64,000 bases of DNA from NCBI RefSeq assembly GCF_964048965.1, contig NZ_OZ040189.1, positions 2,108,001-2,172,000 on the forward strand, in the 5' to 3' direction. The position numbers and the translations under genes were made by a program. The notes under the pieces are model-generated. The model saw nothing but the letters and a program-made list of their open reading frames with translations, was not told where the DNA came from and made no database searches. Position 1 is the first letter of the stretch. Every line of letters starts with the position of its first letter. The stretch is from Tenacibaculum sp. 190130A14a. GTDB lineage: Bacteria; Bacteroidota; Bacteroidia; Flavobacteriales; Flavobacteriaceae. This document shows positions 29,200 to 44,934 of this stretch, piece after piece.

Positions 29200-29200
29200 C

Positions 29201-30321: not shown

Positions 30322-31290
30322 TTACAATATTCCTAAATGTATTATTCGACTACCAGTTTGCCCTACTGGATTAATACTTTTCCCTATAACTATTCCATCT
30401 TCTGGAGCATAATACTCCTTTAAAACCCTACCAAACACATCACGAACTGTTGCTATTAATTCTCCTTTTTTAAGTTTTTGAGTTAGTTGAGAATGTACTT
30501 GAAGAACTCCTCCTACGTGGCTATAAATCCAATATGATTTTTTACATATAATAGCAGGGGTTTCAGCTTCTTCCATCTCGGTATCATACATATTTAAAAA
30601 AGATAATGTATTATAAACCCCTGTTAAACCAGACCGAATCATTCCCTTCTGAAACTTATCTGGATCACCTACTTCAACAGTTATTGAATCAATACCTAAA
30701 TCTGCCGCCGCTCCTCGAAGAGTTCCATCTTTCGGAGGTGCATTTAAAATAATTTGAGGATTTTGAATCATCGCTAACTGCTTAGCTACTTTAGAAGATA
30801 AATCTGCTCTAATATAATAGGAATTAATTCTTCCAAAACTTGCAGTATGTAGGTCTAATAAAAAATCAAAATTTTTAACTATTCTATTCACAACCCTACT
30901 AGCATAAACTTGACTCCTATTCCCTTCTTTATTTCCAGGCATAATTCTATTTAAGTCTTCTCCATCAATAAAACGTCGTTCATTAACTAAAATAGAAGGC
31001 ACATTAACTACAGGAACACCAATAATAGTTCCTGATAGTTTCTCCAAATCAATTGAGTTAAATAGACGCTGAATAACTGGCATTCCATTTAATTCATTAC
31101 CATGGACTACAGCCGTTATTCCAAGTGTTGGCCCATCCTCTACTCCTCTTCCAACAATTATCGGAACATAAACAGGCTGACCAATACCATTCGATACTAT
31201 ATGTAACCATCTATATGATAATGTGTTTTTCTCATATGAATCTATCTTGATTCTTTTGATGACAGGTATTTTCTTAAACTTTTTTGCCAT
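30322..31290 (-). CDS. Succinylglutamate desuccinylase/aspartoacylase-family zinc hydrolase, 322 aa
   Basis: Cytoplasmic M14-like zinc hydrolase of the AstE/AspA family. Zinc ligands are visible in VVHGNELNG (H..E) and LLDLHTASFG (H), and the catalytic glutamate probably lies in TVEVGDPD. The C-terminal part is a beta-rich biotinyl-like domain (GGVLQVHSQLTQKLKKGELI). The ATG overlaps the stop of the ATP-grasp gene by one base, so the products are translationally coupled. Pairing of a ligase and a hydrolase is a known theme of ATP-grasp amidoligase systems, in which the hydrolase removes or edits the amide bond. The substrate is not visible. Confidence 0.88.
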   Translation of the reverse strand: MAKKFKKIPVIKRIKIDSYEKNTLSYRWLHIVSNGIGQPVYVPIIVGRGVEDGPTLGITAVVHGNELNGMPVIQRLFNSIDLEKLSGTIIGVPVVNVPSILVNERRFIDGEDLNRIMPGNKEGNRSQVYASRVVNRIVKNFDFLLDLHTASFGRINSYYIRADLSSKVAKQLAMIQNPQIILNAPPKDGTLRGAAADLGIDSITVEVGDPDKFQKGMIRSGLTGVYNTLSFLNMYDTEMEEAETPAIICKKSYWIYSHVGGVLQVHSQLTQKLKKGELIATVRDVFGRVLKEYYAPEDGIVIGKSINPVGQTGSRIIHLGIL

Positions 31291-32714
31291 TATAGAATTT
31301 CCTTAATTAATAGCTCATCATCATTTAACGACTTAAATAACTTTCTCTTAAAACCTCCTTTTGTATTAATCAACCTTATAGCCATTTTATCAATTGCTAT
31401 GGACGTTAATACTGTTTGAATATAGGCTTCAACCAAATCATCTAAACCTATCCCTAAATTGTTAAACTCTTTTCTTTCCATTAGTAACAATCTATTAGTA
31501 TCTGACCCCCAATCTCCATTCTCTTTCCTAAAAGATAAATTAGTTCCTAATATATCCCATGACGCTTTCCCATCTTCTAACACATCTTTTAATGGGGATT
31601 TTGCTCGTCTAGAATAAATAGATAGTGGTTTATAGCCTTCTTTTGTGCCATGAATCATCATTCTAAAATCTAGTACATAAGACTGCCCTTTTTGGTTTGG
31701 AACAGTTCCAACATGATAAAACTTTCCTTCAGAAGTAACAGAACTCCAATTATAATTCCCAACTAAACTTTGGACTATAAATTTATCATAATCAAAATCA
31801 AGTTCCATAAAGTCTGTTAATTCCTTCTCATTAACGATAGTATATACCCCTTGTCCTGCATTGCTATAAGGATTTTTTACAACTGCCTTTCCTCCCATAT
31901 TATTAACCCACAGTGGAATTTCATTTTTATTCACATCCCAAATGGTATGCGGAGTCAAAATTTTAAGATTTTTGTTTAACAGCTCAGCATTGAAGAATGA
32001 ATAAGCTTTTGATGCTATCATTTTATTTCTACCTCCTGCTAGACAAACTATTGTCGGGTTTATAATTTTTGTTTTCGAACTAATAGGTAATCTATTCCAT
32101 GGTTTTTGAGTTAAATATCTAAAAACCAACCCTAACTTTATCCAACTACCATCTATTTTTAATTGGATATAGTCTCCACTTGTGTCAATATGGGATTTAT
32201 CTAATTGGTTGTAAAAAGGAACTAGAAAAACTTCTTTTTTTAATACATCGGCCATTGCATGAGCATAACCAGAGGCTTCCATAAAATTTTTATCATAAAT
32301 AACTGCCACAGCATCATTAACCTTCTTTTTCAATAAAGGTTTAATCGTTTGTTCCATAAACTTTTTATATCCTCCCTGCTCATCAAACTCATTAAGTAAT
32401 GGCATAGATTTTTGACCTGACGGACAAGAGTTATTTTCAATAATCACCATTTGTCTTTTTCCTTTCTCTGTAGTTACATGCAATAAATCAGCTCCAGATA
32501 AATGATAATGTCTTGGTTTATATCTTAAGATTTCATTTAAATCATCAGGGTTAACTTTTGGGTTTAAATGACAATATCTTTTTACAATTCGATCCGTTGA
32601 AAGATTTAAAAAATAGCTTACCATTGGATGTATAGTTGCATTAAGCGACTTTTCATACCAGTGATTCTCAGGTTCAAAAGTACCTGGTAATATAACTTTA
32701 ATTTCTTCTCTCAT
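31290..32714 (-). CDS. ATP-grasp ligase-like protein, 474 aa
   Basis: The C-terminal half has ATP-grasp features: lysine and glycine-rich loop in KAVVKNPYSNAGQGVY, then FIVQSLVGNYNWSS and a basic/acidic stretch LDFRMMIHGT. The N-terminal part (SCPSGQKSMPLLNEF) is family-specific and I do not know its role. It is first in a two-gene operon with the M14 hydrolase. An amidoligase forming a peptide-like bond on a small molecule or protein is the usual function of such pairs, so this is a class-level call. It is divergent from the ECF-type promoter and small secreted gene at 33051. Confidence 0.78.
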   Translation of the reverse strand: MREEIKVILPGTFEPENHWYEKSLNATIHPMVSYFLNLSTDRIVKRYCHLNPKVNPDDLNEILRYKPRHYHLSGADLLHVTTEKGKRQMVIIENNSCPSGQKSMPLLNEFDEQGGYKKFMEQTIKPLLKKKVNDAVAVIYDKNFMEASGYAHAMADVLKKEVFLVPFYNQLDKSHIDTSGDYIQLKIDGSWIKLGLVFRYLTQKPWNRLPISSKTKIINPTIVCLAGGRNKMIASKAYSFFNAELLNKNLKILTPHTIWDVNKNEIPLWVNNMGGKAVVKNPYSNAGQGVYTIVNEKELTDFMELDFDYDKFIVQSLVGNYNWSSVTSEGKFYHVGTVPNQKGQSYVLDFRMMIHGTKEGYKPLSIYSRRAKSPLKDVLEDGKASWDILGTNLSFRKENGDWGSDTNRLLLMERKEFNNLGIGLDDLVEAYIQTVLTSIAIDKMAIRLINTKGGFKRKLFKSLNDDELLIKEIL

Positions 32715-33050
32715 TTTGTTTTATTTAATTATTTTATCTTTCCAATAATACGCCAAAAAACAATTAGTTGTATATAAAATCCAAAAACATTTAAACACAC
32801 TTCAAACCCTTAATAACCAACAAATTAAACACGTATTGAAAAATATTATTTTCATAAAAAAAAATTAAATATTTTTTTTTAATTATATTAAAATTAAAGA
32901 GTATTTTTGATTATATAAAATTGAAGCTTATGTAACATCATTTCCTTTGAACCACGAGCATAATTATCGTTTAATTTTTGCTAAAAGCAACTTGGACTTG
33001 TTGTGGTTAATTTCCAAGATTTATTATTATTAATTAAAAACTAAAAGGAA
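32715..33050. other. Divergent intergenic region with an ECF-type promoter
   Basis: About 340 bases, very AT-rich, with a long A/T run near 32850-32890. It contains the plus-strand ECF-like site at 32948-32974. No gene seen. The minus-strand ATP-grasp operon promoter must lie here but no clear TAnnTTTG was assigned. Confidence 0.55.
32948..32974 (+). promoter_or_regulatory. ECF-sigma-type promoter, site 1
   Basis: TGAACC followed exactly 20 bases (T to C) later by CGTTTAA. The geometry equals the three sites at 42229, 42401 and 42915, though the sequence is the most divergent of the four. It lies about 75 bases before the small secreted protein gene. Identity as a site for the sigma factor encoded at 42964 is inferred. 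Confidence 0.55.
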
Positions 33051-33392
33051 ATGAATATTAAATTTTTAAAGTTTACGCTTATAGCTGTTTTATCTTCAAT
33101 ATTAATGGCAAGTTCTGTCTTAACTTATTATAATACACTTGATCCTATTAAAATAATTGGAAAATATGAAGGATTTGATGAAATGGGATACAGTTTTTCT
33201 TTTGACACCAATGGAGAGGTAGAAACTATCACTTTCGAAAAAGTTAAAAAGGAGTTTATAATAGAATTTAAATTAGATGAAGAAATCACAATAGGTAAAA
33301 AATTCGAAATCATTTATTCAATAGTCGAATCTGAAGATGATGAAGATTACTCCATGGAGTTAATCTTAGAATCTTTAAAACTAGTTGAATAA
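33051..33392 (+). CDS. Small secreted protein, paralogue A, 113 aa
   Basis: An N-terminal signal or anchor segment (LKFTLIAVLSSILMASSVL) is followed by an acidic beta-rich domain of about 80 residues. Its pattern G-Y-x-G-F ... ETITFEKV ... GKKFEIIYS ... ILESLKL recurs in the products at 38717 and 44559, so this is one of three paralogues. An AAAGGAA ribosome-binding-like stretch precedes the ATG. Function unknown. An ECF-type site lies upstream and a terminator directly downstream, so it is expressed as a single gene or with leaky read-through into the MscS gene. Confidence 0.72.
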   Translation: MNIKFLKFTLIAVLSSILMASSVLTYYNTLDPIKIIGKYEGFDEMGYSFSFDTNGEVETITFEKVKKEFIIEFKLDEEITIGKKFEIIYSIVESEDDEDYSMELILESLKLVE

Positions 33393-33406
33393 TTTTTATA
33401 AACAGA

Positions 33407-33433
33407 CCTCATTCAAATTGAATGAGGTTTTTT
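33407..33433 (+). terminator. Rho-independent terminator
   Basis: Stem CCTCATTC / GAATGAGG with a five-base loop, followed by TTTTTT, 14 bases after the small secreted gene. The MscS gene begins 15 bases later, so its expression depends on read-through or on a promoter not recognised. Confidence 0.82.
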
Positions 33434-33447
33434 AAGCATACAAAAAA

Positions 33448-33939
33448 ATGTACACTATAGTTATTCAAATTTCCATACTATTATTAGCTTTATTTACGGT
33501 AATAAGCCTAACAAAAAGATTAACAAAATCCTATATTGTTAAAAATTCAATAGAACCACATAGAAGAAAATTAATTCTTAATTTGTTTTATCTCTTTTAT
33601 CTTATTACTTCATTTTTTCTACTCTTGTTAATTTTAGGAATTGAGTTTAAACAATTTGGTGTATTTGCTACATCAATATTAGCTGTTTTAGGGGTAGGTT
33701 TTTTTGCTCAATGGTCAATGTTATCAAACCTAACTGCAAGTATTATTCTATTCTTTTATCATCCTATGCGTATTGGAAATACAATAAAAATTCTGGATAA
33801 AGATTATGATTTAACAGGTGAAGTAAAAGATATTACAGGTTTTTATACTCTACTCTTTCTACCTGAAGACAATAAACATATTACTATTCCTAATATTATC
33901 ATCTTATATAAAGGAATAGAATTAATAACTCCCAAATAA
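33448..33939 (+). CDS. Short MscS-family mechanosensitive channel, 163 aa
   Basis: Membrane protein with two to three helices (ISILLLALFTVISL, LILNLFYLFYLITSFFLLLL, pore helix FFAQWSMLSNLTASIILFFY) followed by a short beta domain (HPMRIGNTIKILDKDYDL, PEDNKHITIPNIIILYKG). The pore helix and the beta start match MscS. It is shorter than E. coli MscS (286) and lacks the lower vestibule, so it resembles the minimal MscS-like proteins. It presumably relieves hypo-osmotic stress. A second MscS-type gene lies at 43706 in the same block. Confidence 0.85.
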   Translation: MYTIVIQISILLLALFTVISLTKRLTKSYIVKNSIEPHRRKLILNLFYLFYLITSFFLLLLILGIEFKQFGVFATSILAVLGVGFFAQWSMLSNLTASIILFFYHPMRIGNTIKILDKDYDLTGEVKDITGFYTLLFLPEDNKHITIPNIIILYKGIELITPK

Positions 33940-34065
33940 CCAATTAGTTATTTTTTTTAAAAAAAATATTAAAAAAGTTTTTTGTATTAAAAAATAGTTT
34001 ACATTTACCGCAATCTTATTAGATAAGTTAAATGTTACGTTTTGCTTATTTCGTAAACAACTTTT

Positions 34066-34095
34066 ATGAGAAGACAAAAGGTTGTTTTGTATTAG
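34066..34095 (+). CDS. Possible 9-codon leader peptide MRRQKVVLY
   Basis: Within the first leader hairpin lies ATG-AGA-AGA-CAA-AAG-GTT-GTT-TTG-TAT-TAG. The peptide MRRQKVVLY has two adjacent arginine codons at positions 2-3. It precedes speA, whose substrate is arginine, and the hairpin loop holds the start codon. An arginine-sensing leader peptide is a tempting reading, but chance short frames are common, so confidence is low. Confidence 0.25.
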   Translation: MRRQKVVLY

Positions 34096-34272
34096 GAAAA
34101 TACAACGAAAAAATTAAGGTGTCTTCATCTTCAAAAAAATACTCTTTACCACTGAATTTTGACATTCAGTGCGGTGGTTGTTTAGCACTACGAGTCTAAG
34201 TATCATTTTATTTTTTTATAACAAACTCGCTACAAGGTAGCAGTAACGTTTGTTTCCAATGCATTTAAAAAA

Positions 34273-34301
34273 GTTTCAGCAATATGCCGAAACCATTTTT
34301 T
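34273..34301 (+). terminator. Possible attenuator hairpin before speA
   Basis: Arms GTTTC-GC and GC-GAAAC with one A-C mismatch, five-base loop, then a T-run (34296-34301). It could stop transcription before speA when folded. Confidence 0.4.
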
Positions 34302-34347
34302 GAATTATCTGTCCGTACAGGAAATTCAAGCAAAATAAACCTAAAAA

Positions 34348-35739
34348 ATGAATACTAGATATAAAGATTTAATAGAGCAAACATTTGATTTTCCTCAAGC
34401 GGAATTTCATACAGAAAAAAACAATTTATTTTTTCACAACATTGATATTATGGAATTAGTAAACCAGTATGGGGCTCCTTTAAAGTTTACCTACCTTCCT
34501 AAAATATCAGAAAACATTAACCGTGCAAAACAATGGTTTTCAAATGCTATTGAAAAACACAATTATAAAGGAACATATAATTACAGTTACTGTACTAAAA
34601 GTTCACATTTTAAATACGTGTTAGACGAAGCACTAAAAAATGACATTCATATTGAAACATCATCTGCTTTTGATATCGATATTGTTAAAGCACTAAAAAA
34701 TGAAGGAAAACTTAAAGACAACGCGTATGTGCTATGCAATGGTTTTAAACGAGATCAATATATAGCAAACATTATCAGTTTAATTGACGGAGGACATTCA
34801 AATTGTATTCCAATTATTGATAATTATGAAGAACTTAACTTGCTATTAGATGAGACAAAAAGCAAGTTCAAAGTTGGTATTCGTATCGCTTCAGAGGAAG
34901 AACCAAAATTTGAGTTTTATACAAGCAGACTGGGTATTGGCTATAAAAACATTGTATCATTTTATGAACGTGAAATAGCTAATAACCCACAGGTAGAACT
35001 AAAAATGCTACACTTTTTTATCAATACAGGTATTAAAGACAACGCATATTATTGGAATGAGTTATTAAAATGTCTAAAAGTATACATCAACTTAAAAAAA
35101 GTATGTCCATCCTTAGACAGCTTAAATATTGGAGGAGGGTTTCCAATTAAAAACTCATTAGCTTTTGACTATGATTATGAATATATGGTAGATGAAATCA
35201 TTAACCAAATAAACAAAGCTTGTGAAGAAGCAAAAGTTGATGTTCCTCATATTTTCACAGAGTTTGGAAGCTTTACAGTAGGCGAAGCAAGTGGAGCAAT
35301 TTATGAAGTATTGTATCAAAAAAAGCAAAACGACCGTGAAAGATGGAACATGATCAATTCATCTTTTATTACCACAATGCCAGATACTTGGGCTATTAAT
35401 AAACGATTTATTATGCTTCCTGTGAACAAATGGAATGATAAATATGAACGAGTTTTACTAGGTGGATTAACATGTGATAGTGATGATTATTACAATTCAG
35501 AGCAGCACACTAACGCAATTTACCTTCCTGTTTACGAGAAAGAAAAACCACTATATGTGGGCTTTTTTAACACGGGAGCCTATCAGGAAACTATTGGAGG
35601 TTTTGGCGGATTACAACACTGTTTAATTCCACACCCAAAACATGTGTTAATAGACATAAACGAAAATGGAAAGCTCACAACCAAACTGTTTAAAGATCAA
35701 CAAAAAAGTGAAGAATTTTTATCAATTCTTGGGTATTAA
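34348..35739 (+). CDS. speA: Biosynthetic arginine decarboxylase, 463 aa
   Basis: PLP-dependent fold III decarboxylase forming agmatine from arginine. The PLP lysine is K84 in YNYSYCTKSSHFKYV. Other family blocks are HIETSSAFDIDIVKAL, RIASEEEPKFEFYTSRLGIG, LNIGGGFPIKNSL and TCDSDDYYN near the C-terminal active-site cysteine. It is shorter than E. coli SpeA (about 660) and matches the compact flavobacterial form. It starts the polyamine operon, 55 bases before the agmatinase gene, so it makes the precursor for putrescine. Confidence 0.93.
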   Translation: MNTRYKDLIEQTFDFPQAEFHTEKNNLFFHNIDIMELVNQYGAPLKFTYLPKISENINRAKQWFSNAIEKHNYKGTYNYSYCTKSSHFKYVLDEALKNDIHIETSSAFDIDIVKALKNEGKLKDNAYVLCNGFKRDQYIANIISLIDGGHSNCIPIIDNYEELNLLLDETKSKFKVGIRIASEEEPKFEFYTSRLGIGYKNIVSFYEREIANNPQVELKMLHFFINTGIKDNAYYWNELLKCLKVYINLKKVCPSLDSLNIGGGFPIKNSLAFDYDYEYMVDEIINQINKACEEAKVDVPHIFTEFGSFTVGEASGAIYEVLYQKKQNDRERWNMINSSFITTMPDTWAINKRFIMLPVNKWNDKYERVLLGGLTCDSDDYYNSEQHTNAIYLPVYEKEKPLYVGFFNTGAYQETIGGFGGLQHCLIPHPKHVLIDINENGKLTTKLFKDQQKSEEFLSILGY

Positions 35740-35794
35740 AACGTTTAGTTATTCTGAAAATTTTAAGAGTAATAACACAACAATTAAAACTAAA

Positions 35795-36727
35795 ATGAAC
35801 ACGAAAAATTACGCTGGTATACCAGACCAATACGCAAAGTTAGAAAAAGCAAATATTGTACTTATTCCTGTGCCTTATGACGGTACTAGTACTTGGCAAA
35901 AAGGTGCAGATAAAGGGCCTGATGCATTCTTACAAGCATCAGAAAATATGGAATTATACGATATCGAAACCAATAGCGAAGTATATAAAGAAGGAGTGTA
36001 TTTAACGGAAGCTATAACTGAAAATTCTTCACCAGAAGCGATGGTAGAGGCAGTACATTCGGAAGTAAAAAAATACATTAATAAAAAGAAGTTTGTAACT
36101 ATTGTTGGTGGAGAACATTCTATATCTATAGGTACTATCCGTGCCTTTGACGAATGTTTTAATAACATCTCTGTTTTACATATTGATGCTCATGCCGATT
36201 TACGAAAAGAATACGAAGGTTCGACTTGTAATCATGCTTGTGCAGTTTATGAAGCAAGTCAAAACACCAATTTAGTACAAGTAGGTATTCGTAGTATGGA
36301 CGTCTCTGAAAAATCCTCAATGAACATGGAAAAAGTTTTCTTTGCACATGACATGGCTGTAAATGAAGATTGGGTTGACGATGTACTAGATCAATTAACT
36401 GATAATATCTTTATAACATTTGATTTAGATGCTTTAGACCCATCAATTATGCCTAGTACTGGAACACCAGAGCCAGGAGGATTACTTTGGTATGAAACAT
36501 TAGATTTTTTACGTCGCGTTTTTGAAGAAAGAAACGTTGTAGGATTTGATATTGTAGAGCTATGTCCCAATGAACTTGATAAATCATCAGATTTTTTAAT
36601 GGCCAAATTATACTACAAGATGTTAAGCTATAAGTTTTACTTAAACGAAGAAGATGAAGATGAAGAAGACAAAAAGGAACATAAAGCTATCTCTAAGTTT
36701 AGAGAAGACGAATACGAAGAATATTAA
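35795..36727 (+). CDS. speB: Agmatinase/arginase-family ureohydrolase, 310 aa
   Basis: Manganese-dependent ureohydrolase converting agmatine to putrescine. Metal-binding motifs are intact: VGGEHSISIG, HIDAHADLR and TFDLDALDPSIMP. A longer frame opens at 35666 inside speA, but the ATG at 35795 with an A-rich leader is the better start. The C terminus is highly acidic (EDEDEEDKKEH). Arginase and agmatinase are hard to tell apart by eye; placement directly after arginine decarboxylase makes agmatinase the sensible call. Confidence 0.92.
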   Translation: MNTKNYAGIPDQYAKLEKANIVLIPVPYDGTSTWQKGADKGPDAFLQASENMELYDIETNSEVYKEGVYLTEAITENSSPEAMVEAVHSEVKKYINKKKFVTIVGGEHSISIGTIRAFDECFNNISVLHIDAHADLRKEYEGSTCNHACAVYEASQNTNLVQVGIRSMDVSEKSSMNMEKVFFAHDMAVNEDWVDDVLDQLTDNIFITFDLDALDPSIMPSTGTPEPGGLLWYETLDFLRRVFEERNVVGFDIVELCPNELDKSSDFLMAKLYYKMLSYKFYLNEEDEDEEDKKEHKAISKFREDEYEEY

Positions 36728-36729
36728 AA

Positions 36730-37500
36730 ATGTTAGTCAAAGCATATCATTTAGAAGTTCAAATAGATCTGAGTAGAATCCGAAATTGGTTTTCCAAGTA
36801 TCAATTGTTAAAAAGGGAGCATACTTTTATTCTATATAAAACAAATAAGGAATCTTACATCTACTTAAAAAACTATGGCAGTGTAGTGTTTTTAAATTGT
36901 GAGAATTTTGAAATAGTAACTGTTTTAGAGTATTTAAATGGAACTAAAAACAATATGGAAACAATGCTTTCTGAAGAGTATGAAATAACCATAAATGACG
37001 ATATAGAAGTTGATTTTGGAAGTATACAAATTAAAGAGCTCCATGATGATATAGCGCATATTATTATGTTGAATTTGGCACAATCAGTAGCGCTAATGAA
37101 TTATGTGAACAAGGCTTCTGATTTGCATGAGAAAACCATGGTGTATTCTCGACAGCTTGAGCACACAGGAAACTTTAAACTATCAAAAACAAAAATGCGC
37201 AAGTTTATAGGCAGAACTTTAAATCTAAAAAACAACATAGCCGAAAACTTGTTTGTATTTGACTCACCAGAAGTAGCTTGGAGTGACAAAGAACTGTCAG
37301 TTTTAGATTACAAGTTAAAAGATGAGCTGGATGTTGCAAAAAGACATCAGGGTATTGAAAATAGTCTAAACGTAATAAAAGAAAATTTAGACCTATTTAG
37401 TGATATCATCCATCATAAATATAGTAGCATGCTAGAATGGATAATCATCCTTCTTATCTTATTTGAAATCGTACAAGTTTTAATCGAAAAAATATTATAA
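36730..37500 (+). CDS. RMD1/DUF155 family protein, 256 aa
   Basis: Protein of the RMD1/YagE family (DUF155). A soluble alpha/beta part is followed by a helical region (QSVALMNYVNKASDLHEKT, LKDELDVAKRHQGIENSLN) and a C-terminal membrane anchor (LEWIIILLILFEIVQVLI), the characteristic end of the family. Biochemical function unknown. It is 2 bases after speB and 2 bases before the deoxyhypusine synthase-like gene, so it is cotranscribed with polyamine enzymes. Confidence 0.85.
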   Translation: MLVKAYHLEVQIDLSRIRNWFSKYQLLKREHTFILYKTNKESYIYLKNYGSVVFLNCENFEIVTVLEYLNGTKNNMETMLSEEYEITINDDIEVDFGSIQIKELHDDIAHIIMLNLAQSVALMNYVNKASDLHEKTMVYSRQLEHTGNFKLSKTKMRKFIGRTLNLKNNIAENLFVFDSPEVAWSDKELSVLDYKLKDELDVAKRHQGIENSLNVIKENLDLFSDIIHHKYSSMLEWIIILLILFEIVQVLIEKIL

Positions 37501-37502
37501 AA

Positions 37503-38471
37503 ATGAACAAACCAATTACAAATTTTATAGAAAAATACTTTTTACACTTTAATGCAGCATCGTTAGTAGATGCTGCCAAAGGTTACGAAACTCAATTAGA
37601 ACAAGGAGCTAAAATGTTAATTTCTTTAGCTGGTGCTATGAGTACTGCGGAATTAGGAAAAATTTTTGCTGAAATGATTCGTCAAGACAAAGTGCACATT
37701 ATTTCATGCACAGGAGCCAATTTGGAGGAAGATATCATGAATTTAGTGGCACATTCTCATTATAAAAGAGTTCCAAACTATCGTGATTTAACGCCTCAAG
37801 ATGAATGGGATTTATTATTAAAAGGCTTAAACCGAGTAACAGACACTTGCATACCAGAGGAAGAAGCTTTTCGAAGATTACAAAAGCATATTTTAAAGAT
37901 TTGGAAGGATGCTGAAAAAAATGGAGAACGCTATTTTCCGCATGAATTTATGTACAAATTATTATTATCAGGAGTATTAGAAGAATATTATGAAATAGAT
38001 ATTAAAGATTCTTGGATGTACGCTGCAGCTGAAAAGAATTTACCAATGGTAGTTCCAGGATGGGAAGATTCTACTATGGGAAATATTTTTGCTTCCTATG
38101 TTTTAAAAGGAGAATTGAAAGCTTCTACGATGAAAAGTGGAATTGAATACATGACCTTTTTAGCAGATTGGTATACTAATAATTCGAACAATGGAATTGG
38201 CTTTTTCCAAATTGGAGGAGGAATTGCTGGCGATTTTCCTATTTGTGTAGTACCAATGCTTTATCAAGATATGGAACAAGAAAACACTCCTTTTTGGAGC
38301 TATTTCTGTCAAATTTCAGATTCGACAACAAGTTATGGTTCTTATTCTGGAGCAGTTCCTAATGAAAAAATCACTTGGGGTAAACTAGACATAGATACTC
38401 CAAAATTCATTATTGAAAGTGATGCCACTATTGTTGCTCCATTAATTTTTGCGTATCTTTTAAACATGTAA
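37503..38471 (+). CDS. Deoxyhypusine synthase-family protein, 322 aa
   Basis: NAD-dependent aminobutyl transferase family. Features are the NAD-binding VHIISCTGANLEEDIMN, FFQIGGGIAGDFP, and the region around the essential lysine, K294 in ITWGKLD, equivalent to the lysine of eukaryotic deoxyhypusine synthase. Bacteria have no eIF5A, so the substrate is more likely a polyamine (homospermidine-type reaction) or unknown. It follows speA, speB and RMD1 with 2-base gaps, which supports a polyamine substrate made by SpeB. Confidence 0.88.
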   Translation: MNKPITNFIEKYFLHFNAASLVDAAKGYETQLEQGAKMLISLAGAMSTAELGKIFAEMIRQDKVHIISCTGANLEEDIMNLVAHSHYKRVPNYRDLTPQDEWDLLLKGLNRVTDTCIPEEEAFRRLQKHILKIWKDAEKNGERYFPHEFMYKLLLSGVLEEYYEIDIKDSWMYAAAEKNLPMVVPGWEDSTMGNIFASYVLKGELKASTMKSGIEYMTFLADWYTNNSNNGIGFFQIGGGIAGDFPICVVPMLYQDMEQENTPFWSYFCQISDSTTSYGSYSGAVPNEKITWGKLDIDTPKFIIESDATIVAPLIFAYLLNM

Positions 38472-38472
38472 A

Positions 38473-38730
38473 ATGAAAAGAGTTATTGTTGAATATAGTA
38501 AGCTAACAACTAATATATTAGATTTATTAGTAGCAAAATATCCAGATGGATATGAGTATGAAGATATTATTTCCTTTCAAAACTCTCAAGGACAAACCAC
38601 AAAAGCTGTAGAGGTTAAAACAGAGGATACAATTTACTTAGTCAAGATTAACAAACAACTTAATCAAACTATAGAAGATTATTCCGAAGACAGAGAATCG
38701 TTTAACGATTTTGATAATGAATATTTTTAA
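38473..38730 (+). CDS. Hypothetical acidic protein, 85 aa
   Basis: Starts one base after the deoxyhypusine synthase-like stop. Small and acidic with helix (SKLTTNILDLLVAKYP), two beta-like segments (TKAVEVKTEDTIYLVKINK) and an acidic tail. No family recognised. The end overlaps the next gene by 14 bases, so it is certainly translated as part of the operon. Confidence 0.72.
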   Translation: MKRVIVEYSKLTTNILDLLVAKYPDGYEYEDIISFQNSQGQTTKAVEVKTEDTIYLVKINKQLNQTIEDYSEDRESFNDFDNEYF

Positions 38731-39010
38731 ACCATTACGGATGGGATATTACAGTTCTTTTCAAGATGCAAATACTCAAGGAGTGTTTTTACGTCACGAG
38801 AGTGGGTACTATTATTTCAGAAATACTCAAAATGATGAACATGATGAAATTGTTTTTGAAGAAGTAAATAAAAAAGTTTTAGAAAAATACGATTTAAGAA
38901 CATTAGAATTCAAAGGAAAAAAATTTCAATTGTACTATACTGAAATTATGGAGGATTTAGACGATGAAGATTTTATCGTTTTAAGATTAGATGATTTAGA
39001 ATTAACTTAA
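38717..39010 (+). CDS. Small cytoplasmic protein, paralogue B, 97 aa
   Basis: A TTG at 38711 would give two more residues, but the ATG at 38717 is preferred. No signal peptide. The C-terminal 70 residues resemble the secreted proteins at 33051 and 44559: GYYSSFQ, a DEIVFEEVNKKVLEKYDL segment, and GKKFQLYYTE followed by LRLDDLEL. It has lost or never had the export signal of the others. Overlaps the preceding gene by 14 bases. Function unknown. Confidence 0.7.
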   Translation: MNIFKPLRMGYYSSFQDANTQGVFLRHESGYYYFRNTQNDEHDEIVFEEVNKKVLEKYDLRTLEFKGKKFQLYYTEIMEDLDDEDFIVLRLDDLELT

Positions 39011-39012
39011 TT

Positions 39013-39423
39013 ATGGAATTAAACTTTCACATATCCCTTCCTTGTAAGGATCTAAATGAGACCTTACAGTATTATACGGAAGAATTAGGACTAGAAATAG
39101 GTAGATCTACTAGTAAATGGGTAGATTTTAATCTATACGGAACGCAATTAACTTTTGTTAAAGTAGAGGAATATACTTTCCAATACCCATTTTATGTTTT
39201 AGAAGATAATCAATTACCGACATTTCATTTTGGTATTATACTAAACTATGAAAACTGGGAAAGTATTTATGATAGAATAAATAGATGGTCTACTGACACA
39301 ATTATTAAAACAACGTTTTTTGAAGATCAAAATGGAGAACAAAGTTCGTTTTTCGTTCAGGATCCAAACAACTATCATATTGAATTTAAAACCTTTAAAG
39401 AGAAAGGTGAAATTTTTATGTAA
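39013..39423 (+). CDS. VOC-family (glyoxalase-like) protein, 136 aa
   Basis: Small cytoplasmic metalloenzyme fold with two beta-alpha-beta-beta-beta modules: FHISLPCKDLNETLQYYTE at the N terminus, WVDFNLYGTQLTF, and the C-terminal QDPNNYHIEFKTF, with a glutamate in the usual metal position. Family members include glyoxalase I, dioxygenases and antibiotic-resistance proteins; the substrate cannot be assigned. Two bases separate it from the previous gene. Confidence 0.85.
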   Translation: MELNFHISLPCKDLNETLQYYTEELGLEIGRSTSKWVDFNLYGTQLTFVKVEEYTFQYPFYVLEDNQLPTFHFGIILNYENWESIYDRINRWSTDTIIKTTFFEDQNGEQSSFFVQDPNNYHIEFKTFKEKGEIFM

Positions 39424-39441
39424 ATAACTAAAAAATAAACA

Positions 39442-39867
39442 ATGGGAATAATAGATCTTTTTGAATCAAGTATTCATAGAAACAATATGGCACACTTTTC
39501 TGCAATATTAAATATAGCATTAGTAGATGGTGAATTGAACTCGGATGAACAATTAATCATTAATCGGTTTGTTAAAAAATTGGATATAACTGAGGAAGAA
39601 TATAAAGAAGTCCTAAAAGCTCCAAACAAATATCCAATTATACCTCAAAACAATATAGATGATAGACTTGAGCGTTTGTTAGATTTGTTTAAAATCATTC
39701 TTTCTGATCATAGAATTGATAAAGAAGAAAGTGATTTAGTCCTACGATACGCAATTCAATTAGGATTTAGTGAAGACTCTGCTAAATCTATTATAAAAAA
39801 ATCATTGAATATATTTAATGCAGATATAGATTTTGATGATTACAAAAAAATATTAAGTATTATTTAA
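39442..39867 (+). CDS. TerB-like protein, 141 aa
   Basis: All-helical protein of the TerB/tellurite-resistance superfamily, seen in the two similar halves: ALVDGELNSDEQLIINRFV and IILSDHRIDKEESDLVLRYA, each with an acidic pair in the D-G-x-x-x-x-x-E pattern. Often membrane-associated metal-stress or envelope-stress proteins. Eighteen bases after the VOC gene and 12 before the universal stress protein, so part of the stress operon. Confidence 0.83.
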   Translation: MGIIDLFESSIHRNNMAHFSAILNIALVDGELNSDEQLIINRFVKKLDITEEEYKEVLKAPNKYPIIPQNNIDDRLERLLDLFKIILSDHRIDKEESDLVLRYAIQLGFSEDSAKSIIKKSLNIFNADIDFDDYKKILSII

Positions 39868-39879
39868 TAAATAAATCAA

Positions 39880-40713
39880 ATGAAAAATATTTTAATTCCT
39901 TATGATTTCTCAGAAACAGCAATTAATGCATTAAATTATACTAAAAAACTTTTTGCAGAACAGAATATAAATATCTTTTTATTGGATGTTTATATAGGCG
40001 AAAGATCTTACTTATTAAGTGAGGAATATAATGAGAAATGGTTTAGTCAAATGGACGATGAAATTGAAGATGAATTGAAATATTTGGTTGATATTCTCAA
40101 TAGAGAAAATAAAGGTTTTTCATATCATGCTATTGCCGATTCTAACTCTTTAACAAATGCCATAAAGGAAACTATTAAAGAAGAGAAAATTGATTTGGTG
40201 ATATGTGGTACAAAAGGCGCCAAAAGTTTGGCGCAAACCTTTATTGGAACGAATACAGTTAAAATAATCAGAGCAATTGACTATACACCTATATTGGTAG
40301 TTCCTACAGAATATAAGTATAAAAATATAGACAGGATTATCCTTTCTACAAACTATAAAAGACCTTTTAATAAAACAGAACTTCATCCATTAATTAGATT
40401 GAGTAATATGAAACGCTGCAATGTGGAAATTGTAAATCTTTCTATCGAAGAGGCTTTAACAAATAAGCAAAGAACTCATAAAGTAAATCTAAGAGAATTA
40501 TTACAAGATTTACAAACTCATTATAAAAAGCTTAGCTGGGAAGAATCTGAATCATACACTCTTCAAAAATATGTGGAAGAATCTAACGGACAATTACTAG
40601 TTCTCATCAATCATCATTATAATTTCTTTAATAAATTATTAAACGAAGATGTTATTAAAAAAGTTACTTTTAGTAGTAAAATACCTTTACTAATTTTACC
40701 AGAAATGTCATGA
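39880..40713 (+). CDS. Universal stress protein, 277 aa
   Basis: Cytoplasmic protein with an intact UspA domain in the first half: ILIPYDFSETAINAL (strand and first helix), LLDVYIG, and the nucleotide-binding-type loop ICGTKGAKSLAQTFIGTNT. The second half (from about residue 150) is a more divergent UspA-like domain (RIILSTNYKRPFNKTELHP). It ends with an ATGA overlap with the next gene. Two-domain USPs accumulate under stress; a specific partner is not visible. Confidence 0.9.
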   Translation: MKNILIPYDFSETAINALNYTKKLFAEQNINIFLLDVYIGERSYLLSEEYNEKWFSQMDDEIEDELKYLVDILNRENKGFSYHAIADSNSLTNAIKETIKEEKIDLVICGTKGAKSLAQTFIGTNTVKIIRAIDYTPILVVPTEYKYKNIDRIILSTNYKRPFNKTELHPLIRLSNMKRCNVEIVNLSIEEALTNKQRTHKVNLRELLQDLQTHYKKLSWEESESYTLQKYVEESNGQLLVLINHHYNFFNKLLNEDVIKKVTFSSKIPLLILPEMS

Positions 40714-41111
40714 AAAGTTTAAATTTTAATGAAGATTTTTATATCGCAATCACCCACCTTTTTTATTCTTTCTCTATGATTGACAAAACCATAACTATTC
40801 AAGAAAAAAAGGAAATAGTTTGGGCTATAAAAGAAGAATGGGCTACAAATGAATATGGATTTAATAGTGAAGAGTTAATTTATGAAACTATGAGAAATTT
40901 AATTAATGGTAATTTATCAGCAGAAAAAGCTTATGATTTTTTTAAAAGTTTTTTCTTAACTAATAACAGCTTTTTTAATAATGAAGTTAATATTGAACTC
41001 TTGGATACCTGTTATAAAATTTGTAATGCAAATAATAGTAAAAACAAATCTGAATTAATTCTATTGGCTAAATTGCAGAAACTAATAGAAGATAGAAAAA
41101 TTATAAATTAA
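40710..41111 (+). CDS. TerB-like or unknown helical protein, 133 aa
   Basis: ATGA overlap with the universal stress protein. All-helical, with a TerB-like pattern in SMIDKTITIQEKKEIVWAI and a second region NNSKNKSELILLAKLQKLI; the acidic metal-site residues are weaker than in the neighbour at 39442. It might be a second TerB-type protein. Not sure of the family. It is directly followed by the CorA-like transporter gene. Confidence 0.6.
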   Translation: MKSLNFNEDFYIAITHLFYSFSMIDKTITIQEKKEIVWAIKEEWATNEYGFNSEELIYETMRNLINGNLSAEKAYDFFKSFFLTNNSFFNNEVNIELLDTCYKICNANNSKNKSELILLAKLQKLIEDRKIIN

Positions 41112-42167
41112 ATGAGATTTACTACCCGTCAAAAGAATAAAAGTGAAATCCCTGGCAAACCAATATTTATAGGTACGCAAAAACAGGATAATATTTATAT
41201 TACTCTAATTGCTTTTGATGATAACCAATTTATAGAAATTGAAATATTAGAAATTGAAGAAATTTTTAGTTACCTATCCCAATATAAAAATGCATGGATT
41301 AATATAGACGGTATTCATGATGTAGAATTGATTAAGATGATATGTGAACGCTTTGATATACATTCTTTATTGATTGAAGATATTGTTAACACTGGAGTAC
41401 GATCAAAGTCTGATATAGAGGATGATTTTATTTTTACAGTCATAAAAATGATGTTCTTAGGTAAAGATCAAACATTACACTCTGAACAGCTATCTATGTT
41501 TTTAACCAAAAATGTATTACTAACTTTTCAAGAAAAAAAAGGAGATGTTTTTGATCCAATTAGAGAAAGGATTAGGAATAAAAAGGGTAGAATTAGAAGT
41601 TATAACCTCAGTTACTTAAAATACTGCTTATTAGATGTTATTATCGATAACTATAATTACTTAATAGAAATATTCGGTGAAAATGTAGAAGAACTAGAAG
41701 ATCGAATTTTATCTAATCCTAGCAAAAATGTCCTAGAAGACATTAATAAAAATAAAATAGAACTTAATTATTTTAAAAAAAATATTAGACCTGCTCGTGA
41801 AACAATTAATAACTTTAAGAATTATAAAACACCCTTAATTACAAAACGTGAACAACCATTTTATAATGACCTTAATGAGTTGATAAATAGAATATATGAA
41901 ACATTGGAAAATTATAAGATGATGTTAAGTGAACAATTAACCGTCTATTCTACAAATGTTAACTATAAACTCAATGAAATTATGAAACTTCTTACTATTT
42001 TCTCTGTAGTCTTTATACCAATAACATTTATAGCAGGTATATATGGTACTAACTTTAACAATGTTCCTGAATTGAAACTAGAATATGGATATTTTTATAT
42101 GTGGGGAATTATAATTATTGTGACAATTTCAATGCTTGTATTTTTTAAAAAAAAGAAATGGTTTTAA
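41112..42167 (+). CDS. CorA-family divalent cation transporter with GTN motif, 351 aa
   Basis: Large cytoplasmic funnel domain (residues 1-285) followed by two C-terminal membrane helices: LLTIFSVVFIPITFIAGIY and WGIIIIVTISMLVFF. The inter-helix signature, GMN in CorA, reads G312-T313-N314 (IYGTNFNNVPEL). GMN is almost invariant in CorA; ZntB uses GIN. Selectivity is therefore uncertain: Mg, Zn or another ion. The WININIDG-like N-terminal patch reads AWINIDGIHD. It is the last gene of the long stress operon. Confidence 0.9.
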   Translation: MRFTTRQKNKSEIPGKPIFIGTQKQDNIYITLIAFDDNQFIEIEILEIEEIFSYLSQYKNAWINIDGIHDVELIKMICERFDIHSLLIEDIVNTGVRSKSDIEDDFIFTVIKMMFLGKDQTLHSEQLSMFLTKNVLLTFQEKKGDVFDPIRERIRNKKGRIRSYNLSYLKYCLLDVIIDNYNYLIEIFGENVEELEDRILSNPSKNVLEDINKNKIELNYFKKNIRPARETINNFKNYKTPLITKREQPFYNDLNELINRIYETLENYKMMLSEQLTVYSTNVNYKLNEIMKLLTIFSVVFIPITFIAGIYGTNFNNVPELKLEYGYFYMWGIIIIVTISMLVFFKKKKWF

Positions 42168-42228
42168 ATAATAAATTAGGTTTAATTCCAAATTTTAATA
42201 ATAGCTCACAATATTTAAAATTAAAGTG

Positions 42229-42255
42229 TGACCAAATAATAATTTAATCGTCTAA
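42229..42255 (+). promoter_or_regulatory. ECF-sigma-type promoter, site 2 (sRNA)
   Basis: TGACCAAA, then CGTCTAA starting 20 bases after the T of TGACC. Preceded by GTG as in the site at 42401 and A-G-TGACC at 42915. No gene starts downstream before the terminator at 42343-42367, so it should drive a short transcript. Confidence 0.68.
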
Positions 42256-42259
42256 AAAG

Positions 42260-42367
42260 AGATTCCCCTGCTTTTTAAAAAAAGGCAACCATTTTTCTCT
42301 ATTTGAAAATAGAGAATATTTTCTTTTTCATTACAATTCCCTACCCACTCCTTGGAGTGGGTTTTTT
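42260..42367 (+). ncRNA. Predicted small RNA driven by ECF-type promoter
   Basis: About 108 nt between the expected transcription start, just after site 2, and a strong terminator. No ATG occurs in it. A perfect hairpin (TTCTCTATT/AATAGAGAA, TGAA loop, 42295-42316) and the terminator hairpin (42343-42362) are visible, with single-stranded A/T-rich stretches between. This is the architecture of sigma-dependent small RNAs that repress envelope mRNAs. Targets are unknown. Confidence 0.55.
42343..42367 (+). terminator. Rho-independent terminator
   Basis: Stem ACCCACTCC/GGAGTGGGT with loop TT, then TTTTT. It is GC-richer than any other stem nearby. It ends the predicted small RNA and isolates the next ECF-type promoter 34 bases later. 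Confidence 0.88.
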
Positions 42368-42400
42368 AAAAAACAACAATATCTCTTAATGAATTTTATG

Positions 42401-42427
42401 TGACCAAACAATTCAATTATCGTCCTT
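42401..42427 (+). promoter_or_regulatory. ECF-sigma-type promoter, site 3
   Basis: TGACCAAA with CGTCC starting 20 bases later, the same geometry and almost the same sequence as site 2. The following gene starts at 42453, giving a short leader of about 20-25 bases. Confidence 0.68.
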
Positions 42428-42452
42428 ATAATAACATCTTTTTACTCATATT

Positions 42453-42896
42453 ATGGCGAAAATAAATTCTGTTCAATTAACAAATATTCCTAAAGAAATA
42501 ATAGTAGGAAATAAATTATTTAACCTCAATGTCCAAATCGAAATTGAATGTCATAAAATAGACTTACAATTAGAAATGGAATATTATCTACATGCTTTTA
42601 TTTATGATGTAAAAGGAAAACTAGATACACCTGTATTAGTTCCTAACTGGAACAATAGTTTTGTTTTCCCCATAGCATTTGAAAATTCGGATGAATATTT
42701 AGGAAAAACCCAATGTCTTTTTACTACAAATAAAAAAAGTATTTCAATTTCACTCAATATTGATCTCATGCTAGGCAAATTAAAAGAATCTAGTTTTCCT
42801 ATTACAAAAAGATTAGAAGCTTATGTCGCTATAATACCCGCAATTGGGGTTGCTGGAAAACATTCATCAATTCACAGCGTAAATATGCTTCATTGA
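42453..42896 (+). CDS. Hypothetical beta-rich protein, 147 aa, ECF-controlled
   Basis: Soluble protein without signal peptide or membrane helix, predicted mainly beta (VQIEIECHKIDLQLEMEYYL, SISISLNIDL). No family recognised. It lies alone between two ECF-type promoter sites, with its own site 26 bases upstream of the ATG and the sigma gene's site 18 bases after its stop, so it is likely a direct target of the sigma factor. A role in the stress response is inferred from this only. Confidence 0.65.
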   Translation: MAKINSVQLTNIPKEIIVGNKLFNLNVQIEIECHKIDLQLEMEYYLHAFIYDVKGKLDTPVLVPNWNNSFVFPIAFENSDEYLGKTQCLFTTNKKSISISLNIDLMLGKLKESSFPITKRLEAYVAIIPAIGVAGKHSSIHSVNMLH

Positions 42897-42914
42897 AAAA
42901 AATAGAATATAAAG

Positions 42915-42941
42915 TGACCAATACAGTTTTTGCCCGTCTAA
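42915..42941 (+). promoter_or_regulatory. ECF-sigma-type promoter, site 4, before the sigma gene
   Basis: TGACCA with CGTCTAA starting 20 bases later, 23 bases before the sigma factor ATG. Same geometry as sites 2 and 3, and the strongest hint of sigma-factor autoregulation. Confidence 0.68.
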
Positions 42942-42963
42942 AGAATAAATTAATCAACCTCTT

Positions 42964-43521
42964 ATGTTCGCTCGAAAAAAATCAGATATCTACTTAATTA
43001 AAAAGTTTTTAAGTAAAAAAGATGTCAGCGCTTTTGGTGAATTGTATGACAGATATACTGATCGTGTTTATGCTAAATGCCTTCGCTTTTTTCAGGATGA
43101 AAATAGAGCTAAAGATGCAACACAAGATATTTTTATTAAAATTTTATATGAGTTGCACTCAATTAAGGAGACGGAATACTTTTCTTCTTGGCTATATACT
43201 GTTACGTACAGATATTGTATAGATGAATATAGGAAAGAGAAAAAGAATTTCTTTAAAGATTCAGATATACCGTTAAAAGTTTATTATGAAGAAGATGAAA
43301 ATGTTTTTAATAATTTCTATTCTGAAATTCTTGAGAAAGGATTAGAAAAACTAAACATAGAAGAAAGAACAATTATCATGATGAAATATATTGACGAAAT
43401 GAACATCAGAACAATTTCAGAAATATTAGGTATTGGCGAATCTGCTGTAAAAATGAGGTTAAAACGAACCAGAGAAAAATTAATTAATATCTGTAATATA
43501 CTTATAAACAAAGAATATTAG
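42964..43521 (+). CDS. ECF-type RNA polymerase sigma factor, 185 aa
   Basis: Sigma-70 family, extracytoplasmic-function class: region 2 (FGELYDRYTDRVYAKCLRF, DATQDIFIKILYEL, SWLYTVTYRYCIDEYRKEK) and region 4 (ERTIIMMKYIDEMNIRTIS, GIGESAVKMRLKRTREKL). Region 3 is absent, as usual for ECF. No classic zinc-binding anti-sigma gene follows; instead a 56-residue frame starts 2 bases after the stop. An ECF-type promoter lies 23 bases upstream and matching sites occur before two neighbouring units, so it probably regulates itself and this block. The signal is unknown; the company of channels and a bactofilin suggests envelope or osmotic stress. Confidence 0.94.
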   Translation: MFARKKSDIYLIKKFLSKKDVSAFGELYDRYTDRVYAKCLRFFQDENRAKDATQDIFIKILYELHSIKETEYFSSWLYTVTYRYCIDEYRKEKKNFFKDSDIPLKVYYEEDENVFNNFYSEILEKGLEKLNIEERTIIMMKYIDEMNIRTISEILGIGESAVKMRLKRTREKLINICNILINKEY

Positions 43522-43523
43522 TT

Positions 43524-43694
43524 ATGGACAAAGGATTTAAAAATATAAATACCAAAATAAAGACGCCTAAATCTGTAAAAGATGATGTTATGTGGCATGT
43601 TGAAAAAGTCTTTTTAGTTGAAGCTATTTTTAAACATTTTACGATAACCTTTGGAAAATCGCTGATATCACTATTTAATAACAAACAAAAATAA
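43524..43694 (+). CDS. Small ORF after the sigma gene, candidate anti-sigma, 56 aa
   Basis: ATG two bases after the sigma stop, ends before the MscS gene. Sequence begins MDKGFKNINTKIKTPKSVK, then a helix-like part DDVMWHVEKVFLVEAIF and an amphipathic end FGKSLISLFNNKQK. It is too short for a membrane anti-sigma domain; no cysteine/histidine zinc motif. Small genes directly after ECF genes are often anti-sigma factors or their partners, so this is a candidate by position only. Confidence 0.45.
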   Translation: MDKGFKNINTKIKTPKSVKDDVMWHVEKVFLVEAIFKHFTITFGKSLISLFNNKQK

Positions 43695-43705
43695 ACGGAA
43701 ATAAA

Positions 43706-44539
43706 ATGAAAAATGAACTAACAAACTGGCCTGAAGTTTTCAAAAGCTCTTTTTATAGCCTTTGGGAGAAAATTACACAATCTCTACCAAATATAGCCGC
43801 AGCACTCCTAGTAATTTGTATAGGTATTATTGTTGCTAGAATAATAAGTAAAATTATATCAGCTTTATTGACAAAATTTGGTAATACTAAAATGGGTAGT
43901 GTATTATCTATAGATGATAATAAATATGAAGAAAAAAGTAAAACAGAAATAATAGCATTGTTTTCTAAATTTTCTTACTGGATCGTTGTCTTATTCTTCT
44001 TAGTAGTATCATCTAACGTCCTTGGATGGACAATAGTATCACAAGAAATTGGTGAGCTATTTAGATATATACCTAAGCTTTTGAGTGGAATAATCATTGT
44101 TATTATTGGGTTATATATTGCTCGTTTTATTAAACATACTATTCTAAAAGCTATGAGTTCATTAGAAATGTCTGGATCAAAAGCATTAAGCTCAATGGCC
44201 TTTTATATAGTCTTAATATTTGTTGTAATAACCGCTTTGAATCAAATTGGTGTAGATACATTAATAATCAATCAAAACCTTACCATAATTATAGCATCCA
44301 CTATTCTATCATTTGCAATAGCCTTTGGATTTGCATCAAGAAATATATTAGAAAGCTTTATTTCTGGTTCATACAGCAGAAAAAATCTCGAAATAGGTAC
44401 AGAAATTATCATAGATGGATTTCAGGGTGAAATAGTGAAAGTTGATGCTGTAACTTTTAATGTTGATAATGGTAAGACAATTAAAGTTTTTCCTTTAAAG
44501 ATATTAACTAATATAAACTATGAAATTATTAAGAAATAA
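43706..44539 (+). CDS. MscS-type channel with conserved TM helix repeats, 277 aa
   Basis: Membrane protein with four to five helices: N-terminal TM-helix repeat (LPNIAAALLVICIGIIVARII), a middle pair, and LTIIIASTILSFAIAFGFASR as the pore-like helix, then a short beta domain (IGTEIIIDGFQGEIVKVDA, NGKTIKVFPLKIL). The N-terminal repeat is typical of the conserved TM helix family found with MscS proteins. The C-terminal part lacks the larger MscS vestibule. It belongs to the sigma transcript by spacing. Confidence 0.84.
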   Translation: MKNELTNWPEVFKSSFYSLWEKITQSLPNIAAALLVICIGIIVARIISKIISALLTKFGNTKMGSVLSIDDNKYEEKSKTEIIALFSKFSYWIVVLFFLVVSSNVLGWTIVSQEIGELFRYIPKLLSGIIIVIIGLYIARFIKHTILKAMSSLEMSGSKALSSMAFYIVLIFVVITALNQIGVDTLIINQNLTIIIASTILSFAIAFGFASRNILESFISGSYSRKNLEIGTEIIIDGFQGEIVKVDAVTFNVDNGKTIKVFPLKILTNINYEIIKK

Positions 44540-44558
44540 ATTCACCATTATTATTCAT

Positions 44559-44900: not shown

Positions 44901-44934
44901 TAAAAGGTTTAACTACTATTTATAAGAAAACACA

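Follow-up and report, generated by a model that had tools for sequence, protein, structure and literature searches.

An extracytoplasmic function sigma factor gene, an MscS-type channel gene and predicted GTGAC-N17-GTC promoters on a genomic island of Tenacibaculum

Results

Three predicted promoters of one class surround an ECF sigma factor gene

We analyzed a 64,000-nucleotide stretch of the Tenacibaculum sp. 190130A14a genome (contig NZ_OZ040189.1, positions 2,108,001 to 2,172,000; hereafter, the window), in which the gene of an extracytoplasmic function (ECF) sigma factor lies next to genes for a small protein and an MscS-type mechanosensitive channel and close to a predicted small RNA (sRNA). 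We consider it likely that the genomic island on which these genes lie carries a self-contained copy of a family-wide envelope-tension response, in which the ECF sigma factor would read GTGAC-N17-GTC promoters. A first-pass annotation of this DNA had listed four promoter sites of identical geometry (TGAxC followed, 20 bases from its start, by CGTC or CGTT) around the sigma gene. All of their letters are present, and three of the sites are, on sequence grounds, well supported as promoters of one class, GTGAC-N17-GTC; the fourth, at 32948, is not. The features concerned are listed below in window coordinates, with ranks from the promoter matrix described further on.

42228..42252, + strand: predicted ECF promoter 1 (GTGACC...CGTC), ahead of the sRNA; rank 1
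42400..42424, + strand: predicted ECF promoter 2, ahead of the beta-rich protein gene; rank 50
42914..42938, + strand: predicted ECF promoter 3, ahead of the sigma gene (autoregulation); rank 7
32947..32971, + strand: fourth proposed site, class membership unsupported
42258..42370, + strand: predicted sRNA, about 110 nt, start inferred from the promoter
42453..42896, + strand: beta-rich protein, no Pfam or NCBIfam family
42964..43521, + strand: ECF sigma factor, Sigma70_r2 (PF04542) and r4_2 (PF08281), region 2.4 of the C[IV]D type
43524..43694, + strand: small protein of 56 amino acids, soluble by eye, candidate anti-sigma factor or adaptor; position and similarity kept in relatives
43706..44539, + strand: MscS-type mechanosensitive channel, PF05552 (70.8 bits); behind the ECF gene in relatives

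The sigma protein was searched in 299 Flavobacteriaceae genomes, 98 of which (its own included) were carriers at E 1e-25, and in a genus set of 97 Tenacibaculum genomes, 61 of which were matched at E 1e-20. Upstream regions were inspected at the best-scoring sigma loci from both searches, 57 in number, not counting the window locus or the nearly identical one in another species of the genus (G300; the window's own genome is G000, and L-numbers denote fetched loci). Within the 260 bp 5' of the sigma gene, GTGAC-N16/18-GTC was found in 48 of these 57 loci; the reversed motif was found in none, the other strand gave one match, and the downstream flank and the gene start gave none. The spacing is 17 in 45 of the 50 footprint matches. 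When a core form of the promoter (GTGACY-N14-GTGTCWWA) was counted across the 299 genomes, 439 matches were obtained versus 18 for the reversed form (summed from a per-genome table), and the core form was present in 93 of the 98 carriers and in 10 of the 201 non-carriers (Fisher, 8e-59). Autoregulation by this kind of sigma factor, which the first-pass annotation had proposed, is strongly supported by the footprint in relatives and by this co-occurrence. The own genome contains 23 matches to GTGAC-N17-GTC versus 10 to the reversed motif (4 of the 23 inside open reading frames [ORFs] of at least 100 amino acids) and G300 contains 27 versus 10; one of the own-genome sites precedes a core paralogue of the sigma gene.

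In the window itself, GTGAC-N17-GTC occurs 3 times versus 0.35 expected and TGAMC-N15-CGTY 4 times versus 0.47, counts that were reached in 0 of 100 shuffles in either case; a further TGAxC-N15-CGTY site, at 49414, was absent from the original list. In the 3.94 Mb genome, TGACC-N15-CGTC has only four occurrences; three are window sites, and these begin within 690 bp around the sigma gene. A matrix built from 43 relatives' loci with spacing 17, the window excluded, ranked 42229 first among 127,944 scored window positions, 42915 seventh, 42401 fiftieth and 32948 1,548th. That the sites are chance matches in AT-rich DNA would agree with the behavior of the loose TGAMC/CGTY motif, which had been put forward as a genome-wide marker and is not enriched (39 matches versus 55 for the reversed control). 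Since it is less frequent than its control, this motif alone would fail the comparison with random positions proposed along with it, and only the stricter GTGAC form sustains the finding. For the three sites a chance origin is extremely improbable, being refuted by the footprint, the matrix ranks and the co-occurrence. It does hold for 32948, in which 3 of the 8 letters of GTGAC/GTC differ and upstream of which, at 32902, there is a sigma-A box, TATTTTTG; a TAnnTTTG box was not found within 180 nt before the other three units (42229, 42401, 42915). Site 32948 was dropped because of its low rank and the sigma-A box.

The sigma gene, a small protein gene and an MscS gene stand together in relatives

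The window sigma factor contains PF04542 and PF08281 above cut-off and scores 86.3 bits with TIGR02937 (cut-off 42.9), in agreement with the definition of the ECF class used here (regions 2 and 4, no region 3, about 185 amino acids). At 54 of the 57 other loci an MscS gene adjoins the sigma gene, within 1.5 kb downstream (55 of 58 with the window locus, whose channel carries PF05552); in this feature the loci agree with the type of Pseudomonas aeruginosa SigX. Between the two genes, 52 of the 57 loci (53 of 58 with the window) encode a small protein with the pattern NPFK...VP..LK.KVM.DIA, and Pfam gave no family for the one encoded at 43524. The window locus was left out of the 57-locus counts because window proteins were in the query set. 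As judged from these sequences, versions of the same sigma switch beside an MscS channel are common in Flavobacteriaceae. In the phylum, the core sigma factor was matched in 21 of 395 genomes at E 1e-28. At 18 loci outside the family (one same-genus locus removed), MscS was found within 1.5 kb in 11, the promoter motif in 4 and a small-protein match in 10, the last at a lax threshold and with at least one doubtful case. Relatives of the sigma protein were also sought in genome contigs, and none was confirmed there.

Promoters of this class precede envelope and osmotic genes

From the 439 family matches, we sampled the first match of each of 30 genomes. Two of these sites lie within ORFs, six precede the sigma gene, two precede MscS, two OmpA and two DUF2807 genes (one of them Pfam-tested), one each precedes LysM, dodecin and DUF2853 genes, and two precede unidentified proteins. 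At 11 of the 30 sites, no ORF of 60 amino acids begins within 300 nt; three of these 11 have ORFs of 43-59 amino acids, and others resemble terminated RNAs. Promoter matches in the own genome also precede aquaporin and M48 peptidase genes; one in L185 precedes TerB, and one in L174 precedes a small exported protein that resembles, by eye only, the family of the exported protein at 44559. OmpA genes stand behind the core promoter in the own genome and in two relatives, and none stands behind the island promoters. The envelope or osmotic regulon suggested by the first-pass annotation is borne out in that the same promoters, in relatives and in the host core, precede OmpA, MscS, aquaporin, LysM, DUF2807 and TerB genes; these data support the GTGAC-N17-GTC regulon as a set of envelope and osmotic genes.

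The window sigma locus belongs to a recently transferred island

The sigma locus is part of a block shared almost unchanged with G300.

30324..45452, no strand assigned: genomic island, 15.1 kb, 99.65% identical by blastn to a block in G300

The flanks of the block fetched from G300 (12.2 kb and 7.7 kb) gave no blastn match to the window, and the one core region compared between the two genomes is 74-83% identical. By its sequence, the window sigma copy appears to sit on a recently transferred island. This transfer, a host paralogue with a different -10 element and a terminated sRNA-like unit were missing from the block as first described. The gene order of the island (polyamine genes, a VOC protein, then sigma, MscS and the beta-rich protein) is found again in L172 and L173, from two other genera.

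Left of the island, 24620-25714 and 25707-27128 resemble tyrosine recombinases (NCBIfam, below curated cut-offs) and 27088-29199 had no NCBIfam match; an integrase-like ORF, identified by eye, lies left of the block in G300. A row of recombinase-like genes at 24620-29596 adjoins the island and has the look of a Tn554-type trio. The polyamine-type genes at 34348-38471 travel with the stress genes in the window and also in L172 and L173, the gene labels being our own reading.

The remaining features of the block are the following.

33051..33939, + strand: second small exported protein and a short MscS-domain protein (Pfam; BLASTP)
41112..42167, + strand: CorA-type transporter, PF01544, directly 5' of the sRNA/sigma block
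44559..44900, + strand: small exported protein, paralogue of 33051, OB-like fold model
44935..45102, + strand: small protein of 55 amino acids, read from sequence; no Pfam family
45099..45437, + strand: bactofilin, PF04519

Of the earlier gene calls, the ECF sigma factor, MscS, TerB (39442) and bactofilin hold in Pfam; for the second TerB-like protein (40710), no Pfam family scored above cut-off. The exported proteins at 44559 and 33051 are 35% identical by BLASTP (E 3e-10), and the small-protein family to which they belong has three paralogues inside the island (33051, 38711, 44559). The structure model of 44559 has a mean predicted local distance difference test (pLDDT) score of 73.5, with residues 1-28 poor, and its top Foldseek matches are OB folds (E 0.014, none at 0.001). 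BLASTP detected no similarity between the two MscS-domain proteins of the block. Homologues of the beta-rich protein are present in 13 of 397 family genomes, the own genome included, with ECF and MscS genes nearby at 6 of the 12 other loci; its structure model was unusable (mean pLDDT 50.2).

A region 2.4 residue and a -10 base differ together in the island copy

Island and host versions of the circuit differ at the -10 element: the island promoters read CGTC, and that of the host core paralogue (C1:3539550, 39% identical to the island sigma factor) reads TGTC. All 43 aligned footprints have G two bases ahead of GTC, at a position left free in the search pattern, and 41 have T at the following base; the island promoters have TC, TC and CC at these two positions. 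On the protein side, N follows C-x in region 2.4 in 70 of 73 aligned sigma rows, and D is found in the remaining three, namely the island, L178 and L181. With one place that had been fetched twice counted once, D was present in 7 of 7 sigma genes whose promoter has C or A ahead of GTC, and in 0 of the 56 distinct loci with T or G there; four of those seven belong to other families of the phylum and came to light once the pattern was already known. A grouping of the island sigma factor with L178 and L181, obtained in a reduced tree of 25, had support of 33/64, and this placement was not established.

The island combines D in its sigma factor with CGTC in its promoters, where the host paralogue has N and TGTC; because of this joint difference, the island circuit is probably partly insulated from that of the host. 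The island could instead be an add-on to the host regulon, its promoters being read by the core paralogue as well, with no separate circuit. Both GTGAC and the -35 helix SAVKMRLKR are conserved, and this nearly identical recognition helix, the shared -35 element and the equal spacing would all permit such reading. The -10 elements differ, however (CGTC versus GTGTC, with the invariant G of the 43 footprints), and GTGAC-N17-GTC sites with C before GTC were not found outside the island in either the own genome or G300. We regard the add-on explanation as somewhat unlikely and partial insulation as the better account.

The first promoter precedes a terminated small RNA unit

The first-pass annotation had assigned one site to a transcript without a gene, and the unit behind promoter 1 agrees with this description: it has its own predicted ECF promoter at 42228, a fold with a z-score of -4.07 (42258-42372), an intrinsic terminator and no ORF of 80 amino acids, as expected of an ECF-dependent sRNA unit. 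The layout comprises a 5' domain with CCCC, a hairpin, the linker CUUUUUCAUUACAAUU and the terminator (stem 42343-42362). Of the 97 genus genomes, only G000 and G300 match the full unit, while 81 match part of it at E 0.001; most of the matches listed cover bases 95-143 at about 75-83% identity, and a few lie elsewhere. The partial matches represent a terminated RNA family with the linker CUUUUUCAUAGCAAUUUU, found in 51 of 299 family genomes and 39 genera, with 0 reversed-control matches. Among 47 distinct family copies inspected (the island's included), 43 carry a TAnnTTTG box 15-100 nt before the linker (background in the window, + strand, 0.6 per kb), and only the island's copy has the ECF motif.

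It is rather improbable that 42229-42370 gives no free sRNA and serves the beta-rich protein gene as a leader with attenuation at the terminator. The unit is on the same strand and ends 83 nt before the start of that gene, as a leader would, yet a second promoter of the same class follows the terminator, at 42400, and the 3' part belongs to the family of terminated units with a sigma-A box in 43 of the 47 copies inspected. The sRNA is the interpretation that we prefer.

Across Flavobacteriaceae the family is multi-copy, with the linker CUUUUUCAUAGCAAUUUU conserved and the flanking hairpins variable; three tandem copies adjoin rnpB in G000 (C1:2390094-2390438, L247). Rfam gave no credible family at the island sRNA and, at related copies from eight loci (Rfam 15), only the neighboring RNase P and sub-threshold matches. 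Plasmids searched with the island sRNA gave no match. Antisense pairing with start codons, examined with the linker CUUUUUCAU versus AUGAAAAAG, gave 22 places versus 14 in the control and was not supported; 8 of the 22 are sRNA copies, the island's own included, and only two of the rest start an ORF of at least 100 amino acids.

Hairpin RNA units follow the operon at the core locus

At the Tenacibaculum core locus, one to three hairpin units (GATAGA-UUUCGGGGGACU-UCUAUC and a terminator) lie behind the ECF-small protein-MscS operon; several of them have, by eye, their own GTGAC-GTGTC promoter. The hairpin was found in 26 contigs, 25 of Tenacibaculum and 1 of a Flavobacteriaceae bacterium. An alignment of 25 of the 41 copies found shows changes on both sides in 8 of 17 predicted pairs, all of them in the terminator. 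Tandem units with a G-rich loop were seen at L090:8030-8413 (- strand), L093:11315-11560 (+ strand) and L146-L171. Closely spaced ECF-type sites occur elsewhere, two in G000 (C1:3270450-3270762, L252) and four in G300 (C1:2466804-2467922, L251); those of L252 precede ORF-less units with a terminator-like hairpin (by eye), possibly a second ECF-driven sRNA array.

Pairing of the island sRNA with the core hairpin, which would make one a sponge for the other, was rejected for copy 1, the duplex energy being matched by 263 of 1,000 shuffles and the longest pairing equalled by 508 of 2,000 shuffles and 128 of 1,112 window segments. Copy 3 has an 11-pair match, equalled by 42 of 2,000 shuffles and 3 of 1,112 segments, which is only a lead, as both G300 hairpin units seen have a loop of the copy 1 type.

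Discussion

A search of open-licence literature brought up no account of the regulon, the promoter or the sRNA module, and the first-pass annotation likewise knew of none for the regulon; a related ECF/small-protein/MscS arrangement is, however, known from Pseudomonas SigX. The P. aeruginosa SigX locus consists of cmaX (CorA), cfrX (84 amino acids), cmpX (MscS) and sigX, with cmaX controlled by AlgU and not by SigX (PMC7641640). A review names SigX as the only studied ECF factor regulated by a mechanosensing complex, and the complex that would release the sigma factor is a proposal in P. aeruginosa too (PMC8999054). As far as these accounts describe it, the SigX module (ECF102) differs from the present one in phylum, in gene order (here sigma-small protein-MscS) and in promoter (here GTGAC-N17-GTC); a mobile copy, an OB-like exported protein, a bactofilin, a beta-rich protein and an sRNA are further particulars of the present system. 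Shared by the two are an ECF gene with genes for an MscS-type channel and a small protein as neighbors, a CorA gene upstream (here in the island) and perhaps a protein of the OmpA family behind promoters of this kind (here in the core regulon only); OprF belongs to the OmpA family.

The nearest counterpart in print to the island promoters and sRNA, to the extent that the published text describes them, is the SM6 group of Flavobacterium psychrophilum, whose promoters have an ECF-type CGT box and one of which precedes a putative regulatory RNA, Rfp11 (PMC9723704). These too are flavobacterial ECF promoters with a CGT -10 element, one of them before a putative RNA, while the genes behind them include type IX secretion system genes, Band-7 and an ECF sigma factor with an anti-sigma gene (PMC9723704). 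The comparison was made by text only; SM6 may be the same class, and the main text has no GTGAC-initial word (PMC9723704).

We propose that the ECF sigma factor binds GTGAC-N17-GTC promoters and would thereby switch on its own operon (sigma factor, small protein, MscS and, probably, the downstream genes for the exported protein and bactofilin), together with the neighboring gene of the beta-rich protein and the terminated sRNA. Most likely, by analogy with P. aeruginosa, the small protein keeps the sigma factor in check, with membrane tension sensed by the channel as the signal, as proposed for CfrX-CmpX-SigX; we infer this step from gene order only. The sRNA would probably act post-transcriptionally on envelope genes, as sigma-E-dependent sRNAs do. 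E. coli RybB and MicA are sRNAs of this kind, and FoxJ of Fusobacterium is reportedly a short RNA driven by an envelope-stress ECF factor; the likeness lies in an envelope-stress ECF factor driving a short RNA, and shared sequence is no part of it.

The circuit was deduced from DNA sequence, and several observations weigh against it as we read it. The sites of the promoter matrix were chosen by pattern, which fixes GTGAC and GTC by construction, and even so the matrix places 42401 only 50th. The strict core motif is missing in 5 of the 98 carriers and present in 10 of the 201 non-carriers. The small protein is likened to CfrX by gene order, and pairing of the sRNA with start codons found no support. 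The N/D pattern is confounded by clade and so rests on few lineages: beyond the family, D was seen in 17 of 18 sigma genes, of which only 4 have an identified promoter, and the island sigma factor forms a very long branch (5.78) of unsure placement in the tree.

A broader reading, which we offer tentatively and as somewhat less than an even chance, is that a widespread Bacteroidota tension-sensing ECF module (sigma factor, small anti-sigma factor and MscS) runs an sRNA-rich envelope regulon and has an orthogonal mobile copy. It would include tandem ECF-driven hairpin sRNAs at the Tenacibaculum core locus, and a mobile island on which an ECF promoter drives a copy of an sRNA scaffold that otherwise depends on sigma-A. 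The matched D/CGTC pair would be orthogonal to the N/TGTC pair of the host, allowing the circuit to move between species without cross-talk.

An ECF/small-protein/MscS operon with a clean promoter in many Flavobacteriaceae would place the single case of SigX within a family open to comparison, one whose regulon is defined and whose residues can be tested, and the trio is also present in some other Bacteroidota families. The region 2.4 residue that changes together with one -10 base would offer a direct test of promoter orthogonality, and the sRNA units would provide a test of sRNA-based envelope control, which is poorly known in this phylum.

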